From the NCBI RefSeq assembly GCF_003722075.1, contig NZ_RDSK01000009.1:124001-188000 (forward strand): 64,000 nt of DNA, written 5' to 3'. Within the stretch, counting starts at the first letter, position 1; every line of letters starts with the position of its first letter. The notes beneath the pieces are model-generated. The model saw only the letters and a list, made by a program, of their open reading frames with translations. It did no database searches and had not been told where the DNA came from. The position numbers were made by a program, and so were the translations under genes. The stretch is from Methanohalophilus sp. RSK (GTDB taxonomy: Archaea; Halobacteriota; Methanosarcinia; Methanosarcinales; Methanosarcinaceae). Below are positions 34,496-37,314 of the stretch, piece by piece.

Positions 34496-36514
34496 ATGCA
34501 GGATATAATATACCTCGCCCCTCTGGCAGGTATCGTGAGTCTGATATTTGCTGCATTTTTCGCAACCCATATCCTCAAGGAAGGAACCGGTAACGAAAAA
34601 ATGCAGGAAATTGCCACCGCGATACAGGAAGGGGCCATGGCATATCTGAATCGACAGTACAAGACAATAGCCATAGTTGCTTTAATCCTCGCTTTCTTAA
34701 TCTACGCCCTGCTGGGAGAAAACAGCGGAAAAGTAGCGATAGGATTCATAGTAGGAGCAGCCAGTTCAGCTATTGCCGGATACATTGGAATGAATGTATC
34801 TGTAAGAGCAAATGTCAGGACAACAAACGCCGCATCCAGAGGACTGCATGAAGCCATGCAGGTCGCTGTCCGCGGAGGAGCAGTAACCGGGCTTGCCGTC
34901 GTAGGACTGGCCCTTCTGGGTACCAGTATATTCTACATATTATTCGGCAATGTCGATCAGGTAGTAGGATTCGGATTCGGTGCAAGTCTAATCAGTCTCT
35001 TCGCAAGGGTTGGTGGTGGAATATACACCAAAGCAGCCGATGTGGGAGCAGATCTCGTAGGAAAAATTGAAGCTGGAATACCCGAAGATGACCCCAGAAA
35101 TGCCGGTGTAATTGCTGACAATGTTGGTGATAATGTCGGCGACTGTGCGGGTATGGGTGCAGATCTTTTCGAGACATATGTAGTAACAGTCCTTGCAGCA
35201 ATGCTGCTTGGTGCACAGGTTCTCGAGGCATACCCCAATGCAATAATCTATCCATTAATCCTCGGTGCCGTGGCAATCTTTGCCTCTATCATCTCCATCT
35301 TCTTCGTGCGCGTCGGAAGCGACAACAAAATCATGAAAGCCCTTTACAAGGGAGTCGCTGTAGCCGCATTATTGTGTCTTGTTGCCTTCTACTTCGTAAC
35401 AGACATACTCATTGGAGACATCAACATTTATTATGCATCCCTGGTAGGTGTTGCTATTATGGTGTTGATGGTTGTTTTCACTGAGTATTATACTTCAACG
35501 AGTTACAGACCTGTTAAGAAAGTCGCAGAGGCTTCAGAGACCGGTGCCGGTACAAATGTAATTTCAGGACTTGCAATGGGCTTTGAAAGTACTGCCCTTC
35601 CTGTTGTAACAATCGTTATTGGAATCCTGGCCGCATTCTTCGTTGCAGGTGGGGCTGCAAGCCCTGCAATGGGGTTATATGGTATTGCAATTGCCGCAGC
35701 AGCAATGCTCTCTACCACAGGAATGATCGTTACCCTGGATTCTTACGGACCAATAACAGATAATGCCGGTGGAATAGCCGAGATGGCAGGCCTACCCGCC
35801 GAAGTGCGTGAGATAACAGATGTCCTGGATGCTGTAGGTAACACCACCAAAGCCGTAACAAAAGGATACGCTATCGGATCCGCTGCACTGGGTGCACTGG
35901 CCCTTTTTGCCGATTACAGGCTCAAGGTAAACATTGAAACCGGCGGACTCAGTCTGGACAACCCTGTCGTACTTGTCGGATTGTTCATAGGTGCCCTCCT
36001 GCCATTCATTTTCAGTGCTGTCACAATGCAGGCAGTCGGAAAAGCTGCTTTTGGCATCATCAATGAAGTCAGGCGCCAGTTCAGGGAAATTCCGGGTATC
36101 ATGGAAGGTACCACCAAACCCGAGTATGGAAAATGTGTGGATATCGTAACTGCCGCTGCAATCCGCGAGATGGCAATTCCAGGCATTCTTGCAATCGCAA
36201 CTCCATTGCTTGTAGGCTATATCCTCGGACCACTTGCCCTGGGAGGATTGCTCATAGGAATTATCATATCAGGACTTCTCCTTGCCCTTACAATGGACAA
36301 TGGCGGAGGAGCATGGGATAATGCCAAGAAACTTATCGAGGATGGATACCATGGCGGAAAGGGGTCCGAAGCTCATAAAGCAGCAGTTGTAGGAGATACT
36401 GTCGGTGACCCCTACAAGGACACAGCAGGACCCGCACTGAACTCCCTTATTAAGGTAGTCAACATGATTGCAATCCTGTTCTCCTCCCTGTTTATCGGGG
36501 GAGGAATATTCTGA
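34496..36514 (+). CDS. hppA: Membrane-bound ion-pumping pyrophosphatase, K+-independent type
   Basis: Hydrolyses pyrophosphate and pumps H+ (possibly Na+) out of the cytoplasm. The 672-residue protein has about 16 membrane helices and the catalytic loops [32 protein letters not shown] and, near the end, [17 protein letters not shown]. The position that distinguishes cation dependence reads GNTTKA with K452, the lysine typical of K+-independent pumps (K+-dependent ones have Ala). GGAG precedes the ATG by seven bases, and TATATAAAA at about 34255-34263 may be the promoter, giving a leader over 200 nt. Together with ppa it gives the cell two pyrophosphatases. Confidence 0.95.
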
Positions 36515-36631
36515 AGGTCTCTTGACCTTCATTTTCTTTTTATTATAAGACAAAACAGTATAAACTATTCTACAACTATTTGATACACAAAGGATATAGA
36601 TTACCCTATTGAGAATTACTAATGGGGAAAA

Positions 36632-36705
36632 GCTGACGGGTTTTAAGGGGGGGGTTTAATATTTGGGGAGTGGGGGTTTTAGGAAAAGAAAGACAACCCG
36701 TCAGC
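36632..36705 (-). ncRNA. Candidate small RNA with 11-bp closing stem and C-rich loop
   Basis: Between the convergent genes hppA and the TudS-related gene, a perfect 11-bp inverted repeat (GCTGACGGGTT / AACCCGTCAGC at 36632-36642 and 36695-36705) encloses a 52-nt loop. A strong minus-strand TATA box (TTTATATA, 36737-36730) lies about 26-28 bp before 36705, so transcription should begin almost exactly at the stem. The 3' arm is followed by TTTT, a terminator-like end. The transcript would be about 74-80 nt with C-tracts of 5, 4 and 8. On the other strand the loop is G-rich and could form a quadruplex. Expression is not shown by sequence. Confidence 0.45.
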
Positions 36706-36737
36706 AACCCCCGTGATGACTACATATTATATATAAA

Positions 36738-37199
36738 TTACGGTTTGTGACAATCCTGCATACTATAGCATATTCCACGCCTGACAAGTTCCATCTCGAT
36801 CTCTTCAAAAAAAACACCCCTACCAGCAATATGTTCATGTGTAAAGTTTGACACCCTGCCGGCAGGACCACTCACTGTTGTGAGATCTGCAGCACAGGAG
36901 GGGCTTTTTCCTACCCCCACAAATTCAACTGAAAAACCCCTACGATAAAATTCCTCGAGCATATCTGCAAAAGGAGTGAATAATTGTCTGCAGAATTTCC
37001 TGTAGGCCGAATGAATTAACTGGTCCCTGGTAATTTCCCGGCGACTTGAACCAAAATATATCAGTTCCGGACAGGGGAGTTGGATTACATTATCTTTTCC
37101 AGGAGAAAACTTTCCCGGTTTTTTAATACCTGCAAGACGCGACTCAGGGTTGAGAAGACAGTGGGAAACTACCATGATTTTATCATTTTCGGCATCCAT
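36738..37199 (-). CDS. TudS-related (DUF523-like, CD3072-type) putative desulfidase
   Basis: The 153-residue protein has the family start IMVVSHCLLNPESR, QLPCPELIYFG and VGVGKSPSCAADLTT, giving three conserved cysteines positioned as in TudS, where they hold a [4Fe-4S] cluster that removes sulfur from thiouracil. A desulfidase or sulfur-transfer role is inferred from the family. The ATG at 37197-37199 is chosen because AGGTGA is ideally spaced before it. Its stop codon overlaps the TATA box of the candidate small RNA. Confidence 0.65.
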   Translation of the reverse strand: MDAENDKIMVVSHCLLNPESRLAGIKKPGKFSPGKDNVIQLPCPELIYFGSSRREITRDQLIHSAYRKFCRQLFTPFADMLEEFYRRGFSVEFVGVGKSPSCAADLTTVSGPAGRVSNFTHEHIAGRGVFFEEIEMELVRRGICYSMQDCHKP

Positions 37200-37314
37200 T
37201 GAATCACCTGCATGAGAATCTTTATACAATAAGAAGACTTATGGGAACGCAGTTATATCCATAGGGAAACTTCCATATAACTATCACGACATGGTAATCG
37301 GGAGATAATATTTA

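Follow-up and report, generated by a model that had tools for sequence, protein, structure and literature searches.

A hairpin beside hppA in Methanohalophilus is very probably one copy of a small RNA gene family of the Methanosarcinia

Does the inverted repeat that lies beside hppA in Methanohalophilus sp. RSK belong to a gene for a small RNA and, if so, what kind of RNA would it be? We addressed this question in a window of 64,000 nt, the whole stretch of DNA that was analysed. In this window, hppA, encoding the membrane pyrophosphatase (Pfam H_PPase, E 3.6e-270), lies on the plus strand at 34496–36514, and a TudS-like gene (2-thiouracil desulfurase by a likeness that falls short of the Pfam cut-off) lies on the minus strand at 36738–37229. 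As a preliminary description of the locus had pointed out, a perfect 11-bp inverted repeat, GCTGACGGGTT at 36632–36642 and AACCCGTCAGC at 36695–36705, stands between the two genes with 52 nt in between. On the minus strand, the TATA box TTTATATA (36737–36730), found directly after the TudS-like stop codon, starts 32 nt and ends 25 nt before the stem; the loop carries C-tracts of 5 (36676–36672), 4 (36668–36665) and 8 (36654–36647), and TTTT (36631–36628) directly follows the 3′ arm. The TudS-like gene is thus upstream of the putative RNA gene, and hppA, which is convergent with it, provides a synteny anchor. The inverted repeat by itself is weak proof, since one repeat of this 11-bp/52-nt type occurs in the window versus 0.33 per dinucleotide shuffle (40 shuffles). 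The RNA that the locus would encode has a predicted fold of -26.2 kcal/mol (z -4.6), and 0/200 shuffles were as good.

What places the hairpin beyond chance is the combination of its conservation throughout the genus, the covariation of its stem and its recovery by an independent model. The 246-bp intergenic stretch was matched in 8/8 Methanohalophilus genomes (own included) and in one genome of another genus, out of 40 searched. The two most distant Methanohalophilus carry the stems GCTGGTGGG/CCCACCAGC and GCTAGCGGG/CCCGCTAGC, the stem being GCTGACGGG/CCCGTCAGC elsewhere, and despite these changes their loop CCCCACTCCCCAAATA is unchanged; in the genus-level set, 3/11 stem pairs covary. Beyond the genus, hppA adjoins the hairpin not only in Methanohalophilus (L009–L016) but also in Methanolobus (9/10 of L017–L026, plus L072), in genus g4 (L028 and L032), in Methanohalobium (L066) and in Methanosarcina (L107–L110), where the genus assignment is a probable one for L066, L072 and L107–L110. 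Outside Methanohalophilus, L028 and L032 are the only loci, among those compared, at which the TudS-like gene neighbours the hairpin. We then aligned 26 hppA orthologs (20 distinct sequences), including L019, whose fetched stretch is without hppA but which has the same loop and the same other neighbour. The stem pairs in 98.3% of cells, both-sided changes occur in 6/9 pairs (45 cells), and the covariation score was reached by 0/500 shuffles; when the partner column was slid by one, pairing fell to 33–38%. On the minus strand, the 3′ arm of the stem is AACCCGTCAGC at 36632–36642. The loop of these orthologs keeps a U-run, then AACCCCCACUCCCC. The check that the preliminary description had proposed, namely a survey of relatives for stem covariation and conserved C-tracts, has in this way been run, and the small-RNA reading passed it. 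A quadruplex formed in the 3′ end of hppA by the G-runs opposite the loop had also been suggested. These runs are present on the plus strand but lie 133–162 nt past the hppA stop codon, outside the gene, and the C8 tract argues against a conserved quadruplex: its length varies from 5 to 8 among close relatives, and the Methanolobus orthologs have CCCCCACTCCC in its place.

To follow the hairpin further, we built a covariance model (R1) from the 8 Methanohalophilus hppA-locus sequences. At E<=0.1, R1 matched 74/111 genomes of the archaeal family, three low-scoring matches (L048, L052, L054) being judged false by eye, and it revealed further copies in Methanohalophilus sp. RSK itself, at C12 and C15. 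For a second model (R2) we picked 34 copies by hand and included none of the window's own type; the corresponding alignment (A5) was hand-picked from matches, and covariation on it is not counted as evidence. Though built without that type, R2 recovers the window copy at E 7e-5 in 464 kb, the E-values of both models being rough. R2 matched 101/111 genomes of the archaeal family, 174/185 genomes of the order at E<=1e-3 and 216/237 genomes of the class Methanosarcinia at E<=1e-6 (146/150 among good genomes), with 1–14 copies of the hairpin RNA per genome. In a sample of the phylum, 82/392 genomes were matched, every match falling within the class; for the 290 genomes with no match, kinship was inferred from sort order. 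Genera among the matches listed comprise Methanohalophilus, Methanolobus, Methanococcoides, Methanomethylovorans, Methanohalobium, Methanothrix/Methanosaeta, Methanoperedens and ANME-2. Sequence matches occur in at least 118 stretches; 77 of the 80 listed are Methanosarcinia or archaea by record title, and the other three come from Argonema, Verrucomicrobia and a Desulfuromonadales MAG. The matches in Argonema (L146:7027-7095) and in the Verrucomicrobia MAG (L165:5095-5161) resemble simple repeats and not the RNA, while the one in the Desulfuromonadales MAG (L186:2502-2569) resembles a misbinned ANME-2 contig holding a genuine copy. Searches of Rfam 15 with the window at the gathering threshold, and with 8 loci containing copies at E<=1, matched only a tRNA elsewhere.

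Two genera of the same archaeal family, g9 and g10, gave no match to the RNA model. Their genomes are small (1.3–1.8 Mb), and the loss could point, via gene content, to a partner lost along with the RNA. A separate R1 match (L027:1060-1127), with a GCAGGCGGG stem and a C-rich loop, lies between halves resembling an intron-containing tRNA gene; ARAGORN reported no tRNA on L027, and this match is probably a chance likeness of a tRNA intron.

A common plan can be read across the copies: a TATA box, a stem that is mostly TGAGCGGGT/ACCCGCTCA, a U-run, ACCCCCACTCCCC and the closing stem, the stems of R2-type copies being mostly TGAGCGGG/CCCGCTCA. A TATA-like box stands 28–38 nt before the stem in 101/113 distinct upstreams versus 21.2 after shuffling, and this family-wide spacing agrees with the box at 36730–36737. 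The distance would place the transcription start at, or immediately upstream of, the 5′ arm of the stem, GCTGACGGGTT (36695–36705, minus strand). Base composition was analysed in 128 copies, non-redundant by flanks, a set from which L027, L083, L146, L165 and the duplicate loci L001–L008 and L013 were left out. The G content of the loop is 2%, and TTTT is found in the loop of 123/128 copies, the window having the U-rich tract TTTCTTTT (36684–36691, minus strand). The conserved C-box, AACCCCCACTCCCC in the ortholog alignment (36665–36678, minus strand), contains the 11-mer CCCCACTCCCC, which occurs at 3 places in the whole own genome, all inside family hairpins; in 9 genomes, 31/35 places with the exact C-box 11-mer lie in such hairpins. 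Doubled C-boxes occur in several lineages, and the second C-tract of the window (C8, 36647–36654, minus strand) takes the position of the second C-box in the Methanolobus orthologs. Variants of the C-box occur in Methanosarcina (CCCCAACCCCCC...), and its conservation is therefore not absolute.

In the same 128 copies, G makes up 51/1280 of the first 10 nt after the stem versus 1066/6400 of the next 50 nt (p 7e-40), and the step falls exactly at nt 10 past the stem. The simplest reading of so sharp a tail is that the RNA ends there, and for the hppA copy this would make the tail TTTTCCCCAT, without G, at 36622–36631 on the minus strand the probable 3′ end. The TTTT that had been proposed as the end does adjoin the 3′ arm, but in most copies the stem is not followed immediately by a T-run, and the shared feature is the 10-nt G-poor tail. 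From the promoter spacing and this tail we infer that the locus is transcribed and where its RNA begins and ends: very probably, the RNA begins with the stem, ends about 10 nt past it and shows an unpaired C-rich segment, and at the hppA locus it would be about 84 nt long.

Judged from these genome comparisons, the existence of a small RNA gene family in the Methanosarcinia appears nearly certain, and the hairpin beside hppA very probably represents a genuine gene of this kind, as one family copy among several. Of the 'orphan small RNA' of the preliminary description, the independent minus-strand gene with its own promoter and structured hairpin stands, but the orphan does not, since the family is multi-copy and class-wide.

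Other copies adjoin an RfcL-like gene or an MnhG-like gene or, in Methanothrix, follow a LarB-like gene at a distance of about 47 nt (the names LarB and RfcL were read from sequence; Pfam gives AIRC and AAA). Each Methanosarcina genome read has 4 copies. In Methanococcoides, two (L073:2009-2726) and three (L074:2002-3449) RNA gene copies are arranged in tandem, about 670–720 bp apart; the stretches between them resemble the neighbour gene (CofD-like by eye), which looks like a recent duplication of the gene together with its neighbour.

We next considered what such an RNA might bind. Tentatively, and at a little under an even chance, we propose a Methanosarcinia-wide small RNA family in which the C-box is bound by a single conserved partner, and this partner is most likely a protein that binds RNA. 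TBP-dependent transcription would start at the stem, the stem would bring the two RNA ends together as a stable handle, and the absence of G would keep the C-box single-stranded for binding. The RNAs would hold the protein, guide it or titrate it, and archaeal Lsm may bind at the U-run. A single conserved partner is suggested by two observations: the C-box is near-identical among paralogs that vary in stem, position and copy number, and it does not favour gene starts. C-rich loops are usual seeds of base-pairing sRNAs, which counts against the protein reading, as does the reported masking of ribosome-binding sites by the characterised sRNAs of Methanosarcina mazei.

The main rival, a real possibility but one that we hold at below an even chance, is a base-pairing regulator: the C-box, with the C-rich tail, would pair with G-rich ribosome-binding sites in a restricted group of mRNAs, blocking their translation, perhaps with the help of Lsm at the U-run. 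The C-rich segment is indeed unpaired, some tails (L104, L120) carry CCCACCTCC, like the 3′ end of 16S rRNA, and M. mazei offers reported precedents in sRNA154, sRNA162 and sRNA41. Against this stand the pairing tests, for which gene starts were taken from a crude ORF caller. In 395 genes of the own genome, the C-box paired strongly with 17.5% of starts and with 16.7% of interiors, while for the anti-SD control in the same genes the figures were 28.1% of starts and 12.4% of interiors; 24/60 permuted motifs paired as well as the C-box at these starts, and 46/80 permutations were as good in 886 genes of many genomes. Exact 8-mer complements of the C-box number 61 in 464 kb versus 68.9 for shuffled motifs, with 2/61 near gene starts, and an exact 11-mer complement occurs nowhere in the own genome beyond the three hairpins. 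Pairing with ribosome-binding sites, for which the preliminary description had thought the C-tracts suited, is thus not supported as a general mode. These tests address a general preference and are blind to a handful of specific targets, and a few specific mRNA targets for the C-box are possible. Together with the absence of Ro60 described below, the null results favour a protein partner over mRNA pairing with modest confidence. Pairing with another stable RNA (rRNA, SRP RNA or RNase P RNA) instead of mRNA would explain the fixed motif by a single fixed partner in all genomes, and the own 16S rRNA does contain one 8-mer complement, about 46 nt from its 3′ end; chance alone would give roughly one 8-mer in 5.1 kb, the rRNA contig contained no 9-mer complement and pairing with 23S rRNA was no better than for shuffled motifs. 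We hold this reading to be improbable. More improbable still is a DNA element without any RNA gene, be it a miniature inverted-repeat element, a protein-binding palindrome or a terminator: the hairpin is a multi-copy inverted repeat with tandem copies in Methanococcoides (L073, L074), but its places are stable in synteny, the TATA spacing is strand-specific, stem changes are compensatory, the G depletion of loop and tail is strand-asymmetric and most stems are without a T-run directly at their end.

Several further candidates were rejected. A mobile inverted-repeat element disagrees with the synteny at the hppA, RfcL-like and MnhG-like loci, where stems have diverged; an mRNA leader disagrees with the window locus, where the downstream hppA is convergent. 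Some stems begin ATGAGCGGG, as a small ORF might, but the window stem is without ATG by reading. For a C/D box RNA, the GTGATGA on the plus strand (36713–36719) is unfit in strand and order, and no Rfam C/D family matched.

The family was also compared with known RNAs. Bacterial C-rich anti-Shine-Dalgarno sRNAs, such as the CCUCC 'cuckoo' RNAs, the staphylococcal UCCC sRNAs and Helicobacter RepG, are hairpins with an unpaired C-rich segment, sometimes multi-copy. The present RNAs likewise are hairpins showing such a segment, but unlike in the bacterial ones the motif prefers gene starts no more than permuted motifs do, and they belong to another domain of life, with no evident homology. In Y RNAs and YrlA, the partners of Ro60, the 5′ and 3′ ends form a stem that encloses a loop rich in pyrimidines, as they would here. 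A Ro60 (TROVE) gene was found in 0/11 Methanosarcinia genomes tested, the control being positive in Deinobacterium chartae, and a Y RNA was rejected for want of this partner in 11/11 class genomes tested. Genome G065, which we assume may be Methanolobus psychrophilus R15, has 7 family copies, three of which (L085, L086, L087) share a conserved upstream stretch beyond the TATA box. According to the R15 dRNA-seq report, nine highly conserved cold-induced sRNAs share an upstream 'cold box' (PMC5378194); like the present family they are conserved, multi-copy and intergenic, in a Methanolobus. The shared stretch of L085–L087 is a candidate regulatory box, and a lead toward the 'cold box' sRNAs rather than proof. 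Among M. mazei sRNAs, sRNA41 and sRNA154 resemble the present family as intergenic archaeal sRNAs of the same class, and masking of ribosome-binding sites by unpaired loops is reported; sRNA154 is reported with two loops and the present family has one hairpin, the two being compared by description only. sRNA162, also of the same class, has an unpaired linker that binds a ribosome-binding site; it is reported to have three stem-loops, a 39-nt linker and homologs only in three Methanosarcina species (PMC3510493), and identity with it was rejected, the present family being one hairpin and class-wide. We found no description of this hairpin family in the literature searched; published sRNA lists may already hold single copies.

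The small-RNA reading is thus supported far beyond the original claim. The family is absent from Rfam, and we found no description of it in the literature searched. The covariance model and the predicted ends (the stem start and about 10 nt past the stem) are comparable with existing RNA-seq. M. mazei is an established genetic system, and with 4 copies at known places in Methanosarcina, deletion and pull-down are directly possible. It is conceivable, though less likely than not, that the family would prove to be a class-defining ribonucleoprotein: in almost all Methanosarcinia, ANME-2 and Methanoperedens among them, RNAs of about 55–95 nt would show one conserved G-free C-box to a dedicated putative RNA-binding protein and, being multi-copy, would serve as a sponge or scaffold in regulation, comparable to CsrB or 6S RNA in bacteria. 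The class comprises makers and consumers of methane, and since 146/150 good genomes keep the hairpin RNA, in up to 14 copies, it likely does something important in them.
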